Assembly: GCF_014596445.1 (NCBI RefSeq) | Contig: NZ_MECL01000179.1 | Coordinates: 1-64,000, forward strand | Length of the DNA stretch: 64,000 bases | Source: Streptomyces sp. CBMA29 | GTDB taxonomy: Bacteria > Actinomycetota > Actinomycetes > Streptomycetales > Streptomycetaceae | Direction: 5' to 3' | Shown: in pieces, positions 29,274 to 50,120 of the stretch | Layout: each line of letters opens with the position of its first letter | Position numbering within the stretch: position 1 is the stretch's first letter | Notes under the pieces: generated by a model | The model's database searches: none | The model's input: only the letters and a program-made list of their open reading frames with translations | Told to the model about the DNA's origin: nothing | Made by a program: the position numbers and the translations under genes

Positions 29274-29510
29274 ACGGCTCGCAAACCTCCTGAATCGGCC
29301 GGACGGGCACATACCGGGGGCTTGTGGCAGTACGCACCGGCTTGTGCGGCGTACGGGACCTTGTGTGCATCAAGCGGGGCGGCGTGCGCCGATGTGCGCA
29401 GGGGCGGGGGGCGGGGAGGGTGACCGCAGACGCGCAACGCGTCGGCACGGCGGGCCTGTTGACGAGCGATCGGACGGCGCACCGGCGTGCCCGTACGAAG
29501 GAGATTGTCG

Positions 29511-31310
29511 ATGAGAGGCTTCGGCCCGGCAGATACCGGTATCGACGGAAGACGGCGCGGCGAAGGGGGCGGCGGGGCCAGTGGCAGGGCGGACCGGCGG
29601 TGGCGCCGGCGGGTGGCCACGGCGCTGTTGGGCGTGACCCTGCTGGCCACGGGATCGCTGGTCGGGGGCGGCCCGGCACAGGCGAACACGCCCGGTCAGC
29701 CCGGCACACCGAGCGCGCCGACGACCGTGTTCACGGAGGACTTCGAGAACGGTCAGGGCCCGGCGGTGACGACGCTGCCGGACTACACGGGCGCGGCGCC
29801 GCTGGCGGAGACGTACACCGCCGATCCGGCGTGGCTGACCTCCTGCAACGGCCTGCTGGTCTCGCAGCAGGGCCCGGCGAATCCCCCGCCGGGCGTCAAC
29901 TGCGGGGGCTTCTGGAACGCGAACAAGCAGATGGCCGCCGCGCTGGGCACGTGGGCGGGCGGCGACGCGTCCACCAACCACTCGCTCACCGCCTACACCT
30001 CGGGCGATCCGGGCGCCGGGCGCACCGAGTTGGAGACCGTACGGCCGATCCCGCTGAGCGCGAACCACCGGTTCCTGACCTTCTCGGTGGACGCGGCGGC
30101 CCAGAACTGCTTCGCCAGCCACCCCCTGCTCGCCTTCTACCTGCTCGACGGCGGCACCGCCCGCGCCGCGTTCACCTCCCCCATCGACCCGTGCCAGAAC
30201 CCCGGTTCGGTGATCGGCGGCACCTCGGTGGGTACGTACGCCAGCGACGGCTCGGTGCTGTTCACCGGCGACTCGGCCGGTATCCGGCTGGTCAACGAGC
30301 AGGCCAGCGGCAACGGCAACGACGGCGCGATCGACAACGTCCGTCTGCTGGACGCCACTCCGCAGCTCGACCAGGGCTTCGCCCCGGCGAACCTGCCCGT
30401 GGGCGCGCCCGCCACACTGACCTTCACCCTCACCAACACCAGTGAACTGGCCGCCAAGAACGGCTGGTCCTTCGGCGCTCAACTCCCTGACGGGCTGCGG
30501 CTGGACGGCAGCAGCGCGACCACCGACTGCGGTTCGGGAACGGCCACCGCGGACGCGGCGGACGGCACGATGACCGTGAGCGGTGACCTCGCCGCCGGTC
30601 AGCAGTCCTGCACCGCGACCGTCAAGCTCACCTCCAACTACGGCGGCACGTACCAGATGTGCGGCTCGTCGATCACCGACCCGGTCGGCGTCGACCTGCC
30701 GGGCTGCGCCTCGGTGACCTTCACCGCGCCCGTCTTCGACGCCCGCGCGCACGGCGTACGGCTCACCTCGCCGCTGCTCAACATCGGCCCGCTGGCGCCG
30801 TCCGCCCACTCCTGCACGCCGCTGCCCGGCAGCGACAGCCACTCCGTGGTGAGCGCCGGGCTCGGCACCGTCGGCAACCTCGGTGTCCTGACCACCGACG
30901 CCTCGGGCACCGTCGACGCCGACGGGACCCGTACGGCCGCGGCCCACGCCCAGACCTCCGGCATCAATCTCCTCGGCGGCCTGATCACCGCCGACCTCGT
31001 CGGCACCTCGGCCCAGGCACGGCAGTCCCTCACCGGCGCCGGGCCAGGACCGGTCTCCTCGACCGGTTCGACCGTCCTGACCAACCTCCGCGTCGCCGGT
31101 GTCACCGTCGCCGCCAACGCAGCGCCGAACACCACCATCGGCCTGCCGCTCGTCGGCTCCCTCGTCATCAACCAGCGGACGACCGTCGCCGCAGGCAAGG
31201 GCATCACCGTCACCGCCCTCTCCCTGACCCTCCTCACCGGCGTCCACGTCACGATCGCCCAGAGCACCGCCGCCCTCCTCACCTCCACCGACCCCTGCCC
31301 CGCCACCTGA
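29511..31310 (+). CDS. Secreted DUF11/DUF7933-type surface protein (choice-of-anchor P family)
   Basis: 599 residues from ATG 29511, preceded by AAGGAG. Signal peptide after a basic stretch (WRRRVATALLGVTLLATG, cut after AQA). The N-terminal domain is a lectin-like jelly roll (FTEDFENGQGP, GAIDNVRLLDATP). It is followed by a DUF11/DUF7933-like beta-sandwich (PATLTFTLTNTSELAAKNG) and a Ser/Thr/Ala-rich choice-of-anchor P-like region. No LPxTG or C-terminal helix is seen. Function unknown; extracellular or envelope-associated. Confidence 0.75.
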   Translation: MRGFGPADTGIDGRRRGEGGGGASGRADRRWRRRVATALLGVTLLATGSLVGGGPAQANTPGQPGTPSAPTTVFTEDFENGQGPAVTTLPDYTGAAPLAETYTADPAWLTSCNGLLVSQQGPANPPPGVNCGGFWNANKQMAAALGTWAGGDASTNHSLTAYTSGDPGAGRTELETVRPIPLSANHRFLTFSVDAAAQNCFASHPLLAFYLLDGGTARAAFTSPIDPCQNPGSVIGGTSVGTYASDGSVLFTGDSAGIRLVNEQASGNGNDGAIDNVRLLDATPQLDQGFAPANLPVGAPATLTFTLTNTSELAAKNGWSFGAQLPDGLRLDGSSATTDCGSGTATADAADGTMTVSGDLAAGQQSCTATVKLTSNYGGTYQMCGSSITDPVGVDLPGCASVTFTAPVFDARAHGVRLTSPLLNIGPLAPSAHSCTPLPGSDSHSVVSAGLGTVGNLGVLTTDASGTVDADGTRTAAAHAQTSGINLLGGLITADLVGTSAQARQSLTGAGPGPVSSTGSTVLTNLRVAGVTVAANAAPNTTIGLPLVGSLVINQRTTVAAGKGITVTALSLTLLTGVHVTIAQSTAALLTSTDPCPAT

Positions 31311-36141: not shown

Positions 36142-39100
36142 TCAGTGCCCGTTGCCCCGCGCGGGCCGGTGGAAGGCGACGGTGTAGGTACGGGTCACCG
36201 AGCCGTTGGGTGAGGTCAGGGTGACGGTGCGAGTGGTGGAGCGCGGAGCGGTCGAGGAGACGACCGCGCTGCCGTCGGTGACCCTGACCCGGATGCCGGT
36301 CTTGGCCGGTACGGCGGTGACGGCCGGGACCCTGCCGTTGGCGGGGAGGTCGACGACGTACGTGGAGACCTCGGGGTCGAAGCCGTCGACGGCGACTCCC
36401 CCGATTTTGAGGGCACTTGCGTCCGCGACGCTCGCCTTCGTGGCGTCGGCGAAGTTGGTGACGGTGACCGAACCGTCGTGGTTGACGACGAAGTGCGCGG
36501 CCATCGCGGCGGCCAGGTTGATCCGCTCCCAGCTCGCTGCGCCGGCCGCCGTGAGGTCGAGCGGGTAGCCCGAGTCGGTGGCGGTCTGCTGGAGGATCTG
36601 GGTGCGCTGCTCCGCGGTGAGGTCGGGGAACGCGGTGACCAGCAGGGCCGCCGCGTCGGTCGGGGCCGCGAGGGACTGACCGGCCTTGCCCGTACGGGAG
36701 AAGCCGTAGGTCAGGCGCTGGGTGTAGACGTCGATGTCCTGCGCCGTGGTGAGGCCGCCGTAGGAGTCGCCCGCGCAGGCGGCGAGCGTGTCGCCGTATC
36801 CCTGCTTCTCGCACTGTGCGAGCAGCACGTTCTCGATCTCGGTGTGGGCCTGCGTGAGCAGTTGGGCGAAGTCGGGGTCGGCCCACCGGTGGGCCACGGT
36901 GGCCTGTCCGGTGATGCGGCCGCCCATGACGTCGAGCGGGTAGTGGAAGCCGAGGACGACCCGGTTGTCGCCGTACTCCGAGGTGCGGGCGAGGATCGAC
37001 GGCGCCAACTCCGGCAGGAGCGTGGCGAGTACGGTCCCGGCCTCGTATCCGCCGTACGTGTGACCGCTCGGGTACGAGCCGCTGGTGGCGAGACCGCTGT
37101 ACGAGCCGTCCTGCGACTCGTAGACGTCTCCGCCGTCGCCGACGAAGCCGAGCCGGACGTACGGGCGCAGGTAGCCGTAGTGGTCCTTGGCCGCGTCGTG
37201 GGTGTCGAGACCCTGGGTGACCCGGCCGAACAGGGCGTTGGTCTTGGGCAGTTGACCGCCGCTCAGCGCGTCGCTGTAGATCGCGCCGAGCCGGGACCCG
37301 AGGCCGTCCGCCATCGTGACGGTGGCGCTGTGCGTCGCGTCGACCTCGGCCCTGTCCACCTCCTTCTGCGTGGCCGCGTTGTTGATGCGCACCGCGATCT
37401 CGTCGTTCTCCGCGGTGAGCGAAGTGCCGTTGGCGACCTTGGAGTTGGCGCCGAGGACGCTGGAGGGGAGGTGGTCGAAACCGCTGAGGAGGTGGGTGAA
37501 GTAGTCGGAACCGTCGCCGGTAGCAGGCCACTTGTCCGACGCGTAACTCGCCTTCAGCGTCTCGTCGGGGAACGGGGACGGCGTGTACGCCGGGGCGGCC
37601 ACGTCCTGGGCGGTGGCCGGGTCCTGTGCGGTGGCCACGTCCTGAGCGGCGGCCGGGTCGTCCGAGGTCCCGGCCAGCGTCACCGCGGTGACGGTCGCCG
37701 AGTGGGCCTTGGTCGTGCCGCCCGGGGCCGTGAGCAGCGCCGTGCCGGCCGTGGCGGGAAGGTGCGCGGTGGAACCGTCGTCGAGGGTCACGGTGTAGCC
37801 GATGACCGGGAATCCGCCGTCACCGGCCGGCCGCCAGGTCACCCGGACGTGGCCGCCGTGCGTGGTCACCCCCGTCACGTGCGGCTTCTGCGGCCGGCCG
37901 CCGCCGGTCACCACCGGGGCGGTGGCGGCGCTCTGCCGCGAGGCGCCGACGGAGTTCAGCGCCTGGACGCGCGCGGTGTACGAGCGGCCCGCGGGCAGCG
38001 AAGTGAACACCGTGCCGCGGCTGTTCGGGTCGCGGATCTCGACCTGGTGACCGTCGTTGAGGCTGATCCGGTAGCCGGTGACGGGCGAGCCGCCGGTGTC
38101 CTGCGGCGCGGCCCAGGCGACGGTCACACTCGCGCCGGACGAGGTCGCCGACACCGCGCCGGGCACCGCCGGTACGGTCTTGGGCTTCGTCCTGAGCGCG
38201 GACATCGCGCGGTCGAGGGACTGGTGGCGCGCGGTGAGGGTCGCGTCCGTCGCCTTGTCGTCCGCGACGGCCGCCTTGGCCGCGGCGAGCGCGGTGGTGA
38301 ACGCCTTCCACGACGCTTCCGTGTAGCGCGCGTTGTCGAGGGCCGACGCCGTGCCGACCAGGTCCTCAAGTCGCAGCCGGGGCAGCGGAATCAACTGGCC
38401 GGCGGCGAGGGTGAGGCTGCGGGTCTGCGCGTCGACTTCGAGCTGCGCCGCGTCGTCGGCGGCCAGCAGGGCCTGTGCGGAGGCGAGTTCACGCCGGAAC
38501 ACGCCGAAGTCGATCGTGTCGTACCGCGCCGCGTCGCCGGACAGTCCCGCGTACCGGTCGACCGCCTTGCGCAGCGCGGTCTTGTCCGTCGCGGTGGGCG
38601 TGTCAATGTGGCTGAAGGTGATCCGGCCCAGATTCGCGACGTACGGGTGCGAGGAGTCCGGGGTGGTCAGCAGCCGCAGGTGGACGGTGTGCGTGCCGGT
38701 GACCGGCGTGGGCAGCGTCAGGCTCGTCGTGCCTCCCGACGACCACGCGCTTCCGGTGACCGGCAGCGGGACGGTCGCGTACGGCGTCCCCGGGTCGGCC
38801 GCGTCGAAGGAGTCCAGGTAGAGCTGGGCGGCCGAACCGGTGCCGCAGCGGGCGGAGTTGTTGACGTAGGTGAAGGTGACGGTGTTCTTCGGCGTGGACC
38901 CGAAGTCGACGGTGCCGTAACCGGCCCAGGCCCCGTTGTACGTGCCGCCGAGGTCGGTGGTGGAGCCGGAGCCGGTCCAGCCGACCGGCTCGCTCTTGAG
39001 GCCGCCGCCGCTGGTGGAGTCGAACGCGGTGGCGTCGAAGCCCACCGGGGCGTCGGCGGTGCGCGTCAGGGTCAGCGAGTAGACGTTGGCCACGTACGGC

Positions 39101-42100
39101 TGCGAGGACGACTGCGTGCTGGAGACGAAGTCGGCGTACACGTCCTGGACGCCGGTGAAGACGGCCGGGTCGAGCTGAACGGTCGCGGTGGCGAGGGTTC
39201 CCCAGCCGGAGCCGGTGTAGTCGAGCGGGATGTCGACGCTCTTCTCGCCGTCCTTCGAGCCGAGGTGCAGTTCGAGGTGCCCGTCGGACGCGGCGCGCGA
39301 CTGCGGCTTGTCATAGCTGACGGTGACGGTGTCGGCGCCGTCCTTGAGGTCGGTGGCCTTCCACTGGGCCCACGCGCCGTTCGTGGTGTTCTCGAAGATG
39401 CCGTTGCCGAGGCTGAGCGGCAGCGAACCACCGCCGGTCGTGGTGCTGTTGGCCGCCGTCAGCGTGGCGAGCGTGGTCGAGGGCGAGGAGGAGACCGCCT
39501 CGGGCGAGAACTGGTACCAGTCGAAGTTCGACACCCACTGCTGGCCGGACGGCGCGTGGAAGACGAACGTCGCACCGGACGCGGTCAGCAGCGCGTCCGG
39601 GTCGGTGACGGCCGCCCGCACGGTGGTGTAGTTCTGCCAACTGCCCGTGCCGGGAAGGGAGACGGTGGCGACGACGGGGCCGTCGGCGGCGCCCGCGTGG
39701 ACGTCCACACTGCTCGGCTTCGCGCTCGTGGCCTGCGAGTTGGCGTAGCGGACCGCGACGCTGCGCGGCGCGACCCCGCCGAAGTCCAGCTTGTTGTACC
39801 GCTCCCAGGCGCCCTCGGTGACCCCGCCGAGGTCCCCGTCGGAGTAGTACGCCTCCTTCACGAGGCTGGGGCCCTCCATCTGGTCGGGGGCCTCGGCCTG
39901 GAGTACGGCGAAACCGCCCTCGTCGATGGTGAGCGCGTCGGCGGCCGAACGCAGCGCGTCCTGCGCCGCCATGAGCGTGCCCGTCCTGGCGGCGGTGTCC
40001 GCGAGGACGGTCCGCGCGCGCTCCAGCGCCGAACTGAACAGCGTCCAGGAGCCGTCGGAGTAGTTGCCGCTGCGCACCAGCGACGCCTGGCCGACGAGCG
40101 TGCCGAGCCAGGCGCGGTACACCGCGGCGGCGGAGACGGTCAGCGGGTCGGTGGCCGAGATGCCGGTGCCGCTCACCGTGGAGGCGCGCACGCCGTGGGC
40201 GAAGGCCGCGTCGCGGAAGGTGATGCCGTAGCGCGCGTCGACCTTCGTGGTGCCGGTGAGCGACAGCGTCGCCGTACGCGAGCCGGTCACGCGGAGGTCG
40301 GCCGTGACGCCGCCGGGCAGGCCGGTCACGCTCGCCGCGCCGGTCCTGGTGAGGCTGGTGCCGCTGCGGGCGGCGAAGGACGCCGGTCCCGACAGGGTGA
40401 GCTTCACGCTGCCGCGGACGGCGCCGTCCGCTGCGGTGGCGACGGTGTCCGGCCGGGCGGAGAGCACGGTGCCGGTGTGGCCCGTTCCGCTGCCGCCGTG
40501 GCCGGTGTCGGTGTCCAGCGAGTACGCGGGCTTGGTGTCGGCGCCCCACCGGGAGGGCTTGGCGCCCATGGTGAAGTCGAGGGTCCCGCCGGCGACGATC
40601 TGCGAGTAGTCCAGCCAAGTGTTCTGGAAACGCTTGCCGTTGAGCGTCGCGCTCTGCACGTAGTAGTTCGTCGGCGAGACCCCGCCGGCCTTCACCGTGA
40701 AGCGGGAGCCGTTGGCGTAGGTGATCGTCGTGGAGTCGAAGAACGGGCTGCCGATCTGGAACTGGCTGGAGCCCGCGGTCACCGGGAACAGGCCGAGGGC
40801 CGCCGCGACGAACATGGTCGACATGGTGCCCGCGTCGTTGTCCATGGTCGGCAGGAAGCCGTTCGGGGCGAGCTTGTAGACCTGCGTCTTGACCGGCGGG
40901 GTGAACTCACCGCCGCCGCTGGGGGCTTCGTTGGTGGAGCCCGTCGCGATGTACCGGTTCCAGGTCGAACCGGTGTAGATGGCGCGCACCCACTTCTGCG
41001 TCAGGCTGGGCTCGCCGACGTAGTTGAAGAGGTACGGGGCCTGGAGGTCGATCTCGTTCGCGTTGGAGTGCAGCATGGTCGAGCCGTTGTCGAGGGCGGA
41101 GTCCTCGCCGAACATGTGGTCGACGGCGGCCTTTCCGGCCTTCGTACCGCCCATGGCCTTGATGAGGCCGCCCATGTCGTAGGCGTCGTACCAGTGGTAC
41201 TGCCAGAGCGTGCCCTGGTAGAGACCGGCCGCCTCGAACTTCTCGTAGTCGGCGCTCTGCCAGTCGCCGCCGGACGCGCGCGGGGTGAGCAGACCGACCT
41301 TGGTGCCGTCACCGGCCGTCCAGGCGCCGGACTTCACCAGGTTGTCGATCGCCATGGTCGACTGCGTGCGCAGCTTGTCGGCGTCCGCGTCCTTGCCGAG
41401 CGCGCCCGCGACGACGGACAACGCCCACTGGTCGTACCCGCGTTGGACCGTGGTGCCGGGATCACCGGTGACGTACCCCTGCCGCAACTGCGCGCCCGTG
41501 TAGAACCCGGAGTACGACAGCAGCGCCGGATACGCCTCGTCCAGCCGGTCGAAGTTCTTGTACCCCTTCGACAGCGCGTCGGCGATCACCACCGCCGAGC
41601 GCTCCCACCGCACGGTCGGCACCGAGTGCGTGAGACTGCCGAGGCTCTTGCCCGAGGCGTGCACGTCGGCGAAGAGCACGATGAGCGACTGCACCAGGTC
41701 CCGGTACGTGGCCGGGTCGATGTACGCCTCGACCGAGTACTTCCTGAAGTCGTCCCAGGTGGACCAACCGTCGTAGTACGTGAAGCCGTTCGCGGTGTGC
41801 ACCGCGCCGTCCGCGCCCCGGTAGGTCCCGCTGGTGCTGGTGGCGTTCACCGGCAGCCCGTACATCCGGTACAGGTGCGTGTAGAACTCCTTGGTGAGCA
41901 TCGACCCGGGGTCGGACTTCGCGGACGCGCTGACGGCCACGGCGCCGAGCGTGCTGTTCCACTCCGCCTTCGTCCGCGCGCGGGCCTGGTCGAAGGTGAG
42001 GCCGCCGACCTCGTTGCGCTGGTCGGTCACGGCCTGGTCCGCGCTGATCGGCGAGAGCGTGACGCGCAGTTCGACATCGCGCCCGTGCGCCTTGTCGAAG

Positions 42101-42987
42101 CCGAGGACCGCTCCGGCGTCGGAGCCGTCCCGCGTGGTCGCGTCGCCCAGCGTGCCGTCGTTGCCCCAGCTCTTCAGCGAGGTCACCGGGACATTGGTCG
42201 TGGCGGCGTAATAGAGCTGGTACGAGGCGCCGTTGAACGAACCCGCGATGAGGCCGGTGATCGAGGTCGTCCCGTTCGGGAGCGTCGTCGCCTTCATCGT
42301 CGTGCGGGTGCGGCTGGTGAAGTTGTTCGCGAGGTCGAGGACGAGTTGGGGCTCGGCGCCGTCGGGGAAGCTGTAACGCTCAAGGGCCGTACGCGTCGTC
42401 GCCGTCATCTCGGCCTTGACGGTCCCGGCGTCCCGCGTCACCGCCGAGGCGGTCCCGGAGACCGACCCGAGCCCCACCTGGTAGTAACCGGGCGTCGCCG
42501 TCTCGTCGTCGTGGCTGTACGGGTGCGCGTACGTGCTGGGCGCCGGGCGCTTGTCGTAGCGCACGGACGTCGGGACGACCAGCAGGTCACCGCCGCCGCC
42601 CGAGCCGCCGACGCCGTCGAGATTCGTCGCGGTGAAACCGGCGATGCGGCTCTCGTTGTAGTCGTACCCCGTGTGGTTGCGGCCCGGTGTGGTCAGCGGG
42701 TTGACCTTGGCGAGGCTGTGCGGCGCCTCGGCGCCCGGCAGGTCGTTGCCGTCGTCGCCCGCGGTGGAGACGAAGGGGTCGACGAGCTTGGTGTAATCCG
42801 TGCCGCCGGACGTGCTCGCGGTGTTAGCGGTGGGTGCCGCCGTGGCCGTACCGGCGCCCGCCAGCGCGGCGAAGGCGAGCGACCCGGTGAGCAGCGCCGC
42901 GACCGCGGCACGCAGCCGGCCGCGGTGCCCGCGGGCTGCTCCCGGTGGCGTCACGCGGGGCGTCGGGGCATGGGATCTGATGGGCAT
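36142..42987 (-). CDS. Secreted GH92 mannosidase-type enzyme fused to PAP2 acid phosphatase, with CBM6, FIVAR and Fn3 modules
   Basis: 2281 residues from ATG 42987 (GGAGAGG upstream). Order: signal peptide (to about 48); GH92 (about 60-830); Ig-like (835-950); FIVAR (960-1030); three CBM6-like modules (about 1030-1160, 1170-1310, 1312-1456); FIVAR (1462-1600); two Fn3 (1606-1776); PAP2 phosphatase (about 1800-2065); C-terminal beta-sandwich. The GH92 base Asp is kept (D718 in DNDAGTMS). The usual general-acid segment TEGNxWQY reads YQGTLWQY, with Q591 replacing Glu. The phosphatase has all three motifs: K-x6-RP (KDHYGYLRP), PSGH (H1976), and R-x5-H-x3-D (RVVLGFHYPLD). This suggests an enzyme that removes mannose from mannosyl phosphodiesters and then the exposed phosphate. 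Confidence 0.88.
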   Translation of the reverse strand: MPIRSHAPTPRVTPPGAARGHRGRLRAAVAALLTGSLAFAALAGAGTATAAPTANTASTSGGTDYTKLVDPFVSTAGDDGNDLPGAEAPHSLAKVNPLTTPGRNHTGYDYNESRIAGFTATNLDGVGGSGGGGDLLVVPTSVRYDKRPAPSTYAHPYSHDDETATPGYYQVGLGSVSGTASAVTRDAGTVKAEMTATTRTALERYSFPDGAEPQLVLDLANNFTSRTRTTMKATTLPNGTTSITGLIAGSFNGASYQLYYAATTNVPVTSLKSWGNDGTLGDATTRDGSDAGAVLGFDKAHGRDVELRVTLSPISADQAVTDQRNEVGGLTFDQARARTKAEWNSTLGAVAVSASAKSDPGSMLTKEFYTHLYRMYGLPVNATSTSGTYRGADGAVHTANGFTYYDGWSTWDDFRKYSVEAYIDPATYRDLVQSLIVLFADVHASGKSLGSLTHSVPTVRWERSAVVIADALSKGYKNFDRLDEAYPALLSYSGFYTGAQLRQGYVTGDPGTTVQRGYDQWALSVVAGALGKDADADKLRTQSTMAIDNLVKSGAWTAGDGTKVGLLTPRASGGDWQSADYEKFEAAGLYQGTLWQYHWYDAYDMGGLIKAMGGTKAGKAAVDHMFGEDSALDNGSTMLHSNANEIDLQAPYLFNYVGEPSLTQKWVRAIYTGSTWNRYIATGSTNEAPSGGGEFTPPVKTQVYKLAPNGFLPTMDNDAGTMSTMFVAAALGLFPVTAGSSQFQIGSPFFDSTTITYANGSRFTVKAGGVSPTNYYVQSATLNGKRFQNTWLDYSQIVAGGTLDFTMGAKPSRWGADTKPAYSLDTDTGHGGSGTGHTGTVLSARPDTVATAADGAVRGSVKLTLSGPASFAARSGTSLTRTGAASVTGLPGGVTADLRVTGSRTATLSLTGTTKVDARYGITFRDAAFAHGVRASTVSGTGISATDPLTVSAAAVYRAWLGTLVGQASLVRSGNYSDGSWTLFSSALERARTVLADTAARTGTLMAAQDALRSAADALTIDEGGFAVLQAEAPDQMEGPSLVKEAYYSDGDLGGVTEGAWERYNKLDFGGVAPRSVAVRYANSQATSAKPSSVDVHAGAADGPVVATVSLPGTGSWQNYTTVRAAVTDPDALLTASGATFVFHAPSGQQWVSNFDWYQFSPEAVSSSPSTTLATLTAANSTTTGGGSLPLSLGNGIFENTTNGAWAQWKATDLKDGADTVTVSYDKPQSRAASDGHLELHLGSKDGEKSVDIPLDYTGSGWGTLATATVQLDPAVFTGVQDVYADFVSSTQSSSQPYVANVYSLTLTRTADAPVGFDATAFDSTSGGGLKSEPVGWTGSGSTTDLGGTYNGAWAGYGTVDFGSTPKNTVTFTYVNNSARCGTGSAAQLYLDSFDAADPGTPYATVPLPVTGSAWSSGGTTSLTLPTPVTGTHTVHLRLLTTPDSSHPYVANLGRITFSHIDTPTATDKTALRKAVDRYAGLSGDAARYDTIDFGVFRRELASAQALLAADDAAQLEVDAQTRSLTLAAGQLIPLPRLRLEDLVGTASALDNARYTEASWKAFTTALAAAKAAVADDKATDATLTARHQSLDRAMSALRTKPKTVPAVPGAVSATSSGASVTVAWAAPQDTGGSPVTGYRISLNDGHQVEIRDPNSRGTVFTSLPAGRSYTARVQALNSVGASRQSAATAPVVTGGGRPQKPHVTGVTTHGGHVRVTWRPAGDGGFPVIGYTVTLDDGSTAHLPATAGTALLTAPGGTTKAHSATVTAVTLAGTSDDPAAAQDVATAQDPATAQDVAAPAYTPSPFPDETLKASYASDKWPATGDGSDYFTHLLSGFDHLPSSVLGANSKVANGTSLTAENDEIAVRINNAATQKEVDRAEVDATHSATVTMADGLGSRLGAIYSDALSGGQLPKTNALFGRVTQGLDTHDAAKDHYGYLRPYVRLGFVGDGGDVYESQDGSYSGLATSGSYPSGHTYGGYEAGTVLATLLPELAPSILARTSEYGDNRVVLGFHYPLDVMGGRITGQATVAHRWADPDFAQLLTQAHTEIENVLLAQCEKQGYGDTLAACAGDSYGGLTTAQDIDVYTQRLTYGFSRTGKAGQSLAAPTDAAALLVTAFPDLTAEQRTQILQQTATDSGYPLDLTAAGAASWERINLAAAMAAHFVVNHDGSVTVTNFADATKASVADASALKIGGVAVDGFDPEVSTYVVDLPANGRVPAVTAVPAKTGIRVRVTDGSAVVSSTAPRSTTRTVTLTSPNGSVTRTYTVAFHRPARGNGH

Positions 42988-43312
42988 GTGGCCTCTCCGG
43001 AGTCGCGGAACGCACGCACGACCCCGGGAGGACAACGTTGTCAACCCAACACTGGAGCGTGCAGAGTGAGATGGCGGTGGACACGCCGGAGTATTCCCGC
43101 AAGCGCCCACGGACGTCCACCATCAGACACGGGAAAGGCGTACGGGGGACAAACGGAATCCGCACAGAAGGTGCGCTCCGGGCGCACGGGACGGGGCGGG
43201 GGGCGGGGGGTGCGGTTCGCGGCGGGGCGCCGCTCGCCGCTTGTGGCAGGTGACGACTCGGCGATGCCCACGCGTCGAGTTCATGGCACAAGTGGCCCAG
43301 CGGCCACCGGTG
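42988..43312. promoter_or_regulatory. 325-base upstream region of the GH92-PAP2 gene
   Basis: No gene is supported here. It holds the ribosome site and promoter of the minus-strand GH92 gene, the AACGTT-centred palindrome listed separately, and a G-rich stretch (about 43190-43245) leading to the end of the convergent-side GNAT gene. Confidence 0.6.
43031..43042. promoter_or_regulatory. LacI-type operator palindrome upstream of GH92-PAP2
   Basis: GACAACGTTGTC is a perfect 12-base palindrome with the central CG typical of LacI-family operators, 44-55 bases before the GH92 start codon, where it would overlap the promoter or leader. Confidence 0.6.
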
Positions 43313-47562: not shown

Positions 47563-49785
47563 TCAGTTGGTGAAACAGATGTACTTCCACGCCCCGTAGG
47601 TCGTGGTGTTCAACGTGTCGCCGGAGGAGCCGCTGACGTAGGCCGAGCGCACTCGGGCGCGGATGCCGGACTGGCCGGGGTGGCCCAGGTTGACGGCCGA
47701 CTTGCCGTTGGTGCCGAGCTTGAAGTACTCGCTGGCGGAGTTGTACCACTTGCCCCGGTAGTACACCTGCACTTCAAGGCGCTGCTTACGGCCCTTGTAG
47801 TACGTCATCGTCGTCGTGTCGATGACGTCGGTCCTCTTGTGGAAGTAGTAGTACGACGTGGACCCGATCTTGCCGGTCCGGTAGTACCGCGACAGCGTCG
47901 ACGACACCTTCACCCGCGCGAGTCCGGTGGACTTCAGCGTCCTCGGCGCGGTCCGGGAGTCACCCTTGTAGACGGCGGTGACCGTGGTGTTGCGGGTCAT
48001 GCTCACCGACACCGACAGGTTGCCGCCGGAGTTGACCCTGGCGGACTTCAGCAGCTTGTTCGGCTTGTCGCCGCCGTAGGGGTCGGCCCAGATCTCGACG
48101 GTCCGGTTCTTGTACGTCGAGCCCAGGTGCGCCGTGAAGACGACCGTCTTCCCGTAGTCGTACAGCTTCCTGTTGTTGTTCAGCGTCAGCGCCGGGGTGG
48201 CACGGGAGACGGCGACAGTGCGGGAGGCGGTCGCCGCGATGTGCGCGGTGTCACCGGCGTACCGCACCGTGTATTTGACGCTGCCGCCGGCCGGCGGGGT
48301 GTCCTTGAAGGAGAAGCCACCGCCGGAGGTCGTTCTGACGGAGGCCAGCGCCTTGCCCGTGGGGCTTTCGAGGTCCGTCCGGGTCACCGTGAGCACCGTG
48401 CCCACCGGGACCGCCGACTTGGACGTCAACTTGCCGCTGACGGTGAGCGCCTTGGCCCTGGTGGCCGTGGCGGGAGCCGACACGGTCAGGGTGGGCATCT
48501 CCTTGGTGGGATCGGTCAGGGCGCGCAGGCTGTAAGTGCCGTAGGAGTTCTCGGACACCGCGAAGATCCGGCTGAGGTCGGGTGCCCAGGCCAGCGCGCC
48601 GTCGACCAGGGTGTCGGCGCCGCTGCTGTTGCCCGTGTTGGGGAAGTCGTACTCCCGTGTCGGCGTCGTGGCGCCCGGCTTGTAGATGTGGACGTCGGGC
48701 TCGTACCAGGAGAAGCTGCCGCCCGCGACGGTGCCGTTGGGAGCGACCGCCACGGCGTTCGGATAGGCGTCGATCGGATACCGGCCGACGTGCGAGAGGT
48801 CCGTGGTGGAGTACGCGCCGAGGCCGTACCCGTAGCCGCCGGTGTCCCAGGAGGTGAGGACCTGTTTGCCGTCGGGCGTCAGGGCGATCTGCTCCACACT
48901 GGTGTCCATGCTGCCGGAAGCCCGCAGCACGGCTCCGTCCGCCGAGACGTCGAACACCGCGAGCTCGCCGCCACTGCCGGCCGCCACCACGTCCGGGGTA
49001 CCGGACTTGCCGGACGCGGAGGCGAGCAGGGGCGCGCCGTTCCAACTGTGCGCGCCCTCTTCCAGGGTGACGGCGGCGCCGTTGGTGGTGGTAGTGCTGG
49101 TGTGGGTGGTGGCGGCGGCGAAGGACGCGGTCCTGGCGGTGTCGGCGGTGGGCGCGGCCGTGGTGGGCGAATCCGTGGGAGGCGGGTCCGTGACAGGCGG
49201 GTCCGTGACAGGCGGGTCCGTCGGCGTATCCGCGTCCGTCGGCGTCGGCTCAGGCGTCGGCTCGGTGTCCGTCGGAGTAGGGGTGGGCGGGTCGGTCGGC
49301 GGCGGGTCGGTCGGCGGGGTGGTCGGCGGATCGAGGTCCAGGGAGCCGAGGTTGCCCGTTCCGTTCGCCGTGTAGCCGAACCAGATCGTGTGCTTGGTCA
49401 TCGCCAGGTGGCGCGGGGCGACACCGAGCGGGTAGCGGGCCGTCTCGCGCAGTGTGGCCGTGTCGATCGCCGAGATCGCGTCGGCTGTCGGGAGCGCGAC
49501 GTACACCGTCGAGGAGTCCGCGGACAGGACGAGCCCGGCGGCGCCCGGCTCCGAGGTGATCTGGGCGATCGTCTTGCCGTTGTAGTCGGCGACGACGACC
49601 TTGTTGCCGGCGCCGCTGATGAAGACGCGCCGGTGCGCGCCGTCGACCACCATGTCGGAGTACGAGGTGATCGGCAGGGTGGCCGCGCTGTCGGCGGCGG
49701 CCGGTTCGGCCGCGACCCCGAGCAGGGACGCGGTCGCGAGCAGGACGGACAGAGCCGTCCCGCCCGCCACATGACGGGTGAGCAA
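47563..49785 (-). CDS. Secreted YncE-like beta-propeller protein with Ig-like repeats
   Basis: 740 residues from TTG 49785 (GGGGGGAACC upstream); the longer upstream reading lacks a ribosome site. Signal peptide to about AAA at residue 35. Propeller blades (VVDGAHRRVFISGAGNKVVV, GAAGLVLSADSSTVYVALP) occupy about 40-430, interrupted at about 145-215 by a Pro/Thr/Asp-rich insert. Two Ig-like bacterial domains (about 440-640) and a C-terminal beta domain (VQVYYRGKWYNSASEYF) follow. Surface or secreted; function unknown. Confidence 0.78.
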   Translation of the reverse strand: MLTRHVAGGTALSVLLATASLLGVAAEPAAADSAATLPITSYSDMVVDGAHRRVFISGAGNKVVVADYNGKTIAQITSEPGAAGLVLSADSSTVYVALPTADAISAIDTATLRETARYPLGVAPRHLAMTKHTIWFGYTANGTGNLGSLDLDPPTTPPTDPPPTDPPTPTPTDTEPTPEPTPTDADTPTDPPVTDPPVTDPPPTDSPTTAAPTADTARTASFAAATTHTSTTTTNGAAVTLEEGAHSWNGAPLLASASGKSGTPDVVAAGSGGELAVFDVSADGAVLRASGSMDTSVEQIALTPDGKQVLTSWDTGGYGYGLGAYSTTDLSHVGRYPIDAYPNAVAVAPNGTVAGGSFSWYEPDVHIYKPGATTPTREYDFPNTGNSSGADTLVDGALAWAPDLSRIFAVSENSYGTYSLRALTDPTKEMPTLTVSAPATATRAKALTVSGKLTSKSAVPVGTVLTVTRTDLESPTGKALASVRTTSGGGFSFKDTPPAGGSVKYTVRYAGDTAHIAATASRTVAVSRATPALTLNNNRKLYDYGKTVVFTAHLGSTYKNRTVEIWADPYGGDKPNKLLKSARVNSGGNLSVSVSMTRNTTVTAVYKGDSRTAPRTLKSTGLARVKVSSTLSRYYRTGKIGSTSYYYFHKRTDVIDTTTMTYYKGRKQRLEVQVYYRGKWYNSASEYFKLGTNGKSAVNLGHPGQSGIRARVRSAYVSGSSGDTLNTTTYGAWKYICFTN

Positions 49786-50120
49786 AGTGGTTCCCCCCAG
49801 GAACACGTGCGAGGCCGGACGTCCTCCGGCAAGATGCGGGCGCGCCGCCGAGCGCGGGTTCCGATGCGGACCCGGCCTGCTCGCGGCGCCGACCATGAGC
49901 ACGATAGGGCATGGCTGTGACAGCGGGCCATCGTATTGGCGGGACCGCCGCTCCGTCACCGCGCCTTGTCCCGGCGGTGGCCGTACCGTGCCCGATTCGG
50001 TCCCTGATCTCCTACAACCTTCCGGCGCGCGGTACGGAGCCCGTGCCCGTACCGCGCGTCCGGTGGCAGGTCAACGCCGAGCGTAGGCAGCGCTGAGCGT
50101 CGGTCAGTGCTGAGCGTCGG

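Follow-up and report, generated by a model that had tools for sequence, protein, structure and literature searches.

A predicted secreted GH92-acid phosphatase fusion protein in Streptomyces, with a proposed two-step action on phosphomannan

One long gene of Streptomyces sp. CBMA29 raises the question of why a family GH92 mannosidase domain with an altered catalytic acid should share a polypeptide with an acid phosphatase. The gene lies in the window analyzed here, which comprises 64,000 nucleotides of contig NZ_MECL01000179.1. A first-pass annotation read its product as a phosphomannan-degrading enzyme, and this interpretation is supported at the level of sequence and structure, both activities being predicted. 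The coordinates, reading frame and residue numbering given in that annotation proved exact upon translation, with a 2281-aa open reading frame (ORF) on the minus strand that starts with the ATG at 42987 and whose stop codon ends at 36142. The features of the locus are the following:

36142..42987, minus strand: whole gene, encoding a GH92-CBM-FIVAR-Fn3-PAP2 protein of 2281 aa, predicted to be secreted (ORF, translation, Pfam)
42835..42987, minus strand: putative signal-peptide-like N-terminus, aa 1-51 (by sequence reading: Arg-rich start, hydrophobic stretch, AxA-like end)
40504..42804, minus strand: GH92 domain of the CcMan5 type, aa 62-828 (1105 bits to 2xsg/4aq0; model TM 0.98, rmsd 1.1 to 2xsg)
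41215..41217, minus strand: codon of Q591, the catalytic-acid position (aligns with the canonical GH92 Glu and with Gln536 of the 2xsg chain)
40834..40842, minus strand: catalytic base motif D716-N717-D718, D718 being the conserved base position (alignment)
39505..39900, minus strand: CBM6, aa 1030-1161 (Pfam PF03422)
39157..39393, minus strand: CBM35-like module, aa 1199-1277 (Pfam PF18099, CBM35_2)
38194..38370, minus strand: FIVAR domain, aa 1540-1598 (Pfam PF07554)
37921..38163, minus strand: fibronectin type III domain, aa 1609-1689 (Pfam PF00041)
36658..37647, minus strand: PAP2 class A acid phosphatase domain, aa 1781-2110 (Pfam PF01569; PDB sequence matches; model Z ~16)
37162..37188, minus strand: PAP2 motif 1, KDHYGYLRP, aa 1934-1942 (translation; kept in relatives)
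37057..37080, minus strand: PAP2 motif 2, GSYPSGHT, aa 1970-1977 (translation; kept in relatives)
36931..36966, minus strand: PAP2 motif 3, NRVVLGFHYPLD, aa 2008-2019 (translation; kept in relatives)
36160..36450, minus strand: C-terminal beta-sandwich, aa ~2180-2276, likely accessory (model residues 416-512)
43031..43044, minus strand: palindrome TTGACAACGTTGTC, candidate LacI-type operator (genome-wide cores before GH92 and LacI genes; kept upstream of orthologues)

Every Pfam match in the protein (GH92N, GH92, CBM6, CBM35_2, fn3, FIVAR and PAP2) exceeds its cut-off. The curated cut-offs are passed by GH92N (PF17678, 174 bits, residues 68-312) and GH92 (PF07971, 282 bits, from residue 318), and PAP2 (PF01569, residues 1930-2034) scores 39 bits with a cut-off of 27; CBM6 matches residues 1030-1161 and further stretches. 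The C-terminal beta-sandwich emerges in an AlphaFold2 model of aa 1765-2281, where it (model residues 416-512) resembles Ig/cadherin-like accessory domains, several of them from glycosidases, and in a Leifsonia homologue Pfam detects a cadherin-like domain close to the C-terminal end. A PHROGs search with the protein gave no match. The neighboring genes encode a GNAT acetyltransferase, a sigma factor, a sortase and an S11 peptidase, and this neighborhood contributes nothing to the functional assignment. Two more large secreted-looking proteins are encoded in the window, at 29487-31310 and 47563-49959, one with a DUF7933 domain and the other combining a weak Ig-like match with a long stretch rich in Pro and Thr.

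The best PDB match of the GH92 domain was CcMan5 of Cellulosimicrobium cellulans (2xsg/4aq0), with 1105 bits over aa 62-828 and 65% identity, against 218 bits for the runner-up. Likewise, the structure prediction proposed in the first-pass annotation placed the GH92 model (pLDDT 90.5) nearest to CcMan5, with a TM score of 0.98 and 1.1 Å on 2xsg, all ordinary GH92s reaching ~0.8 or less. The acid segment, which in canonical GH92s reads (T/H)EG...QY, is YQGTLWQY in this protein (Q591, within AAGLYQGTLWQ), and the base Asp is retained as D718 in PTMDNDAG. Residue-by-residue alignment maps Q591 to the canonical Glu and to residue 536 of 2xsg, the CcMan5 chain, which is also Gln, as the first-pass annotation stated for the C. 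cellulans uncapping enzyme. In ordinary GH92s the acid has been assigned to a Glu and the base to an Asp, such as Glu535 and Asp637 of BT3130, and the same paper describes CcMan5 as hydrolyzing Man-PO4-Man (PMC5930347). Additionally, a C. cellulans alpha-mannosidase has been employed to uncap yeast-type glycans (PMC9246025). The same Glu-to-Gln exchange appears, by its title, in 7fe2, an ordinary GH92 mutant (E494Q) with substrate, which we read as a means of disabling plain mannoside cleavage. Phosphate as a leaving group is said to require no protonation, a point that the first-pass annotation took from the literature and that is attributed to Tiels et al. 2012, who reportedly characterized CcMan5.

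The Gln at the acid position extends to all the CcMan5-type relatives compared. A genome scan whose search patterns did not include the Gln motif yielded 77 loci, and Gln was found in 77/77 of the CcMan5-type GH92 domains aligned, the window's copy included (relatives 47-89% identical), against Glu in all 11 ordinary GH92s taken from the same loci or genome. The alignment thus bears out the claim of a Gln at the GH92 acid position with the base D718 kept, and places no conserved Glu elsewhere as the acid. A tree built with a quick method split the CcMan5-type clade from the ordinary GH92s with an SH-aLRT of 100, the longest branches sitting among the latter; CcMan5 is located inside the clade because the C. 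cellulans orthologue is near-identical to the CcMan5 chain (1660 bits). Alignment, tree and model therefore all group the domain with CcMan5 and apart from ordinary mannosidases. Throughout the clade the base Asp is conserved, as are many positions of the pocket, and 15 further positions are strictly swapped between it and the ordinary GH92s. Furthermore, R226, K416, R460 and R463 are invariant Arg/Lys positions of the clade that are absent from the ordinary GH92s compared; such residues would suit an anionic leaving group and may bind phosphate. Chance, decay or local mutation as the origin of Q591 was ruled out by the invariance of Gln across the clade, and a grouping with ordinary mannosidases by the tree and the structure comparison. 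The nearest relative by tree path belongs to Streptomyces sp. AcH 505, reported to be a mycorrhiza-helper strain, and an association with fungi would be in keeping with the substrate proposed here. In the proteobacterium Solimonas flava, a short ORF of 874 aa (L073:7839-10460) encodes a GH92 of the CcMan5 type with the Gln, and this copy sits on a long branch.

The C-terminal domain has the class A fold and the catalytic residues expected of an acid phosphatase. Its model scores Z 14.6-16.4 with enzymes of that class and ~10 with the next best structures; vanadium haloperoxidases and membrane lipid phosphatases, considered as nearest kin, rank lower (Z ~10 and below versus ~16). Through the motifs, the domain can be aligned position by position with the class A enzymes of E. 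blattae and with PhoC. The motifs are K1934-X6-R1941-P1942, GSYPSGHT (1970-1977) and NR-X5-H-X3-D (2008-2019), with the catalytic K1934, R1941, P1942, PSGH 1973-1976, R2009, H2015 and D2019 intact. All three motifs listed by the first-pass annotation are present, including the catalytic R, H and D, except that the third begins with N-R and not with S-R, as in its textbook form. Across the 50 domains that span them, the catalytic residues are whole in 49. The exception is the fused protein of S. lushanensis (L008:7692-14798), where K has changed to R and PSGH to PSDH, and its phosphatase half is possibly decaying. With the NCBIfam equivalog for PhoC (NF045654), the score was 63 bits, below the whole-protein threshold of 430, and judged by sequence the domain is a relative of PhoC and not PhoC itself. 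The fold (Z ~16) and the K-X6-RP, GSYPSGHT and R-X5-H-X3-D signatures are shared with the enzymes of E. blattae (1d2t/1iw8), PhoC (9qcj) and PhoN (2akc). However, identity to them is ~25%, the third motif has the N-R start, and those proteins are free enzymes, whereas here the phosphatase forms one part of a glycosidase with several domains.

That the GH92 and PAP2 activities belong together is argued chiefly from their linkage in three arrangements. In 45 of the 77 loci, PAP2 is fused C-terminally to GH92 in one ORF (one GH92 among them being split by a frameshift and one truncated by a contig end), and the fusion occurs in Streptomyces, Actinacidiphila, Kitasatospora, Leifsonia, Schumannella, Mangrovihabitans, Micromonospora, Actinoplanes, Mycetocola and an Actinomycetales metagenome bin. 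The same order in 45 loci rules out an assembly or ORF artefact. The reverse order is found in two Bifidobacterium: one intact protein of 2497 aa (L136), with the layout PAP2(418-717)-GH92(878-1643)-CBM6-Fn3 and the Gln, and a frameshifted draft from B. jacchi (L071:3-7440), where a single frame covers PAP2 and the start of GH92 and is then broken within the GH92 N-terminal domain. Finally, a separate PAP2 gene adjoins the GH92 gene in four genomes (L046, L049, L077, L083). It follows GH92 immediately and in the same direction in C. arenosum and C. terreum, precedes it, again in the same direction, in B. psychraerophilum, and is convergent with it in Luteimicrobium. Thus, the domain-architecture search found that the fusion described by the first-pass annotation recurs in ~45 actinobacteria, and also reversed and as neighboring genes.

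The association also holds when genomes are counted. Among 249 Streptomycetaceae genomes, the GH92 type is present in 22, the PAP2 type in 24, and both in one gene in 21, so that 21 of the 22 genomes with the CcMan5-type GH92 carry the fusion and 21 of the 25 PAP2-type matches share an ORF with it. A survey of 296 genomes across the phylum detected the PAP2 type in just two of them, each time fused to GH92. Three Streptomycetaceae genomes (L126, L127, L128) encode stand-alone proteins of ~1000 aa with a PAP2 domain ~50% identical and no GH92. It is important to consider that 27 of the 77 loci have no such PAP2 near the GH92 (C. cellulans, Salinispora, Phycicoccus, Agromyces and others) and that in several of these genomes the PAP2 type is absent altogether; the GH92 step would therefore work without it. 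The literature searched held no description of a GH92-PAP2 fusion, its one co-mention of the two being a mere mutation list (PMC10376253), and a search of it on fungal mannophosphorylated N-glycans returned no paper.

The upstream region connects the fusion gene with other sugar genes. The palindrome TTGACAACGTTGTC sits 44-57 bases ahead of the start codon, and its perfect 12-base core occurs at six sites in the genome versus ~0.14 predicted from base composition, by our own estimate with 72% GC taken from the window. With one mismatch allowed, a read-backwards control gave 1 match versus 13. Two other perfect cores precede ordinary GH92 genes on another contig (C199), and the other sites, perfect or with one mismatch, are found ahead of genes for an F5/8-domain protein, GH31, GH65, a LacI-family regulator on contig C246 and others. 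Sites of the palindrome GACAACGTTGTC, perfect or with one mismatch, lie on contigs C179, C199, C7, C166, C220 and C246 (loci L087-L098). Among the 36 Streptomycetaceae orthologues whose upstream region was available, the core is perfect in 34 and has one mismatch in two, and the variant GACAGCGCTGTC is frequent among Micrococcales relatives. Since the palindrome is common to these genes and kept in orthologues, the fusion gene is probably controlled together with other sugar-cleaving genes. We infer from the palindrome a putative LacI-family operator, and in this Streptomyces genome GACAACGTTGTC probably marks a LacI regulon devoted to the use of alpha-glycans.

Taken together, the CcMan5-type GH92, the intact PAP2, their recurrent linkage and the shared palindrome point to a secreted enzyme that would act on yeast or fungal mannan in two steps, uncapping and then dephosphorylating it, a reading to which we give a probability of about three in four. 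In the step suggested by the 65%-identical characterized CcMan5, the GH92 domain, with Gln for Glu as the acid, would hydrolyze the terminal alpha-mannose of Man-1-P-6-Man phosphodiesters and leave mannose-6-phosphate on the glycan. In the second, for which linkage and fold suggest the substrate, the class A acid phosphatase domain of the same chain would take off that phosphate to give neutral mannan. Ordinary GH92s (two with the shared palindrome), GH76 and other glycosidases could then trim the product; the genome holds four further GH92 genes and three GH76 matches. The CBM6/35 modules, going by their family membership, would hold the protein on the polysaccharide. A stronger version, in which mannose-6-phosphate is handed directly to the phosphatase within one chain and such coupling came about in either order of the domains, as GH92-PAP2 in many actinobacteria and as PAP2-GH92 in Bifidobacterium, seems to us evenly balanced between true and false.

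Each element of this scheme has a known counterpart. With CcMan5, the protein shares the GH92 fold (TM 0.98), 65% identity, the Gln, the base and the clade-specific positions, but the C. cellulans orthologues are without a PAP2 domain, and any C. cellulans genome that has the PAP2 type carries it as a separate gene not adjoining the GH92. Canonical GH92s (BT3990, BT3130, BT3965, SpGH92) share the family fold and the conserved base Asp; in contrast, they have a Glu acid, cleave plain alpha-mannosides, and are only 16-25% identical to the GH92 domain. In the yeast-mannan pathway of Bacteroides thetaiotaomicron, phosphate-linked mannose is removed and phosphatases then remove the phosphate (PMC10154615). 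The same two chemical steps follow the same logic, but with separate enzymes, a GH38 for uncapping, and action after import, whereas here one predicted secreted chain would use a GH92.

Points against the two-step reading are the broad specificity of the PAP2 class, the 27/77 loci without PAP2, and the changed residues in S. lushanensis. The GH92 might uncap while the PAP2 domain serves as a general secreted phosphorus-scavenging phosphatase, the two not working one after the other on a shared glycan. Non-specificity is indeed a known trait of class A acid phosphatases, so the domain could serve general phosphate release, and related PAP2 genes stand alone without GH92 in some Streptomycetaceae, in addition to being missing near GH92 in those 27 loci. 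However, fusion in two opposite orders plus adjacency, the 21/25 PAP2-type matches inside a GH92 ORF among the 249 Streptomycetaceae genomes, and an upstream palindrome that belongs to a regulon of sugar genes, one for LacI among them, all make general scavenging unlikely. Both domains might instead target another mannose-1-phosphate polymer, such as a protozoan phosphoglycan or a bacterial glycan, given that the characterized activity concerns the bond and not a source organism; this we regard as improbable, as the four further GH92 genes and three GH76 matches fit fungal alpha-mannan and the tested substrate of CcMan5 was yeast-made glycans. The idea that Gln591 marks a dead GH92, a mere mannose-binding module beside an active phosphatase, draws on the Glu-to-Gln mutant of an ordinary GH92 made for a substrate complex (7fe2, by title). 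It is highly improbable, since CcMan5 is active with the same Gln and was used for uncapping yeast-made glycans, and the clade as a whole retains the base Asp and many positions of the pocket.

Regarding sequential action on phosphomannan, both catalytic families and the GH92 specificity were already known, and what is new, as far as the literature was searched, is the fused two-step architecture, which is conserved, exists with the domains in either order and is likely under common control with other sugar genes. Phosphomannan confers negative charge on yeast walls, and to our knowledge its removal by soil bacteria has been little described. The uncapping known from biotechnology, where it is used for mannose-6-phosphate therapeutic enzymes, is now linked to a phosphatase that is its partner in nature. 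Used at full length, a fused homologue would be expected to destroy the M6P product, a warning for such applications, and could also be a tool for stripping mannosyl-phosphate from yeast-made proteins. With a large homologue set available, the two-step idea is directly testable, and on this view the phosphatase and the exchange of the acid for Gln would form one functional unit.
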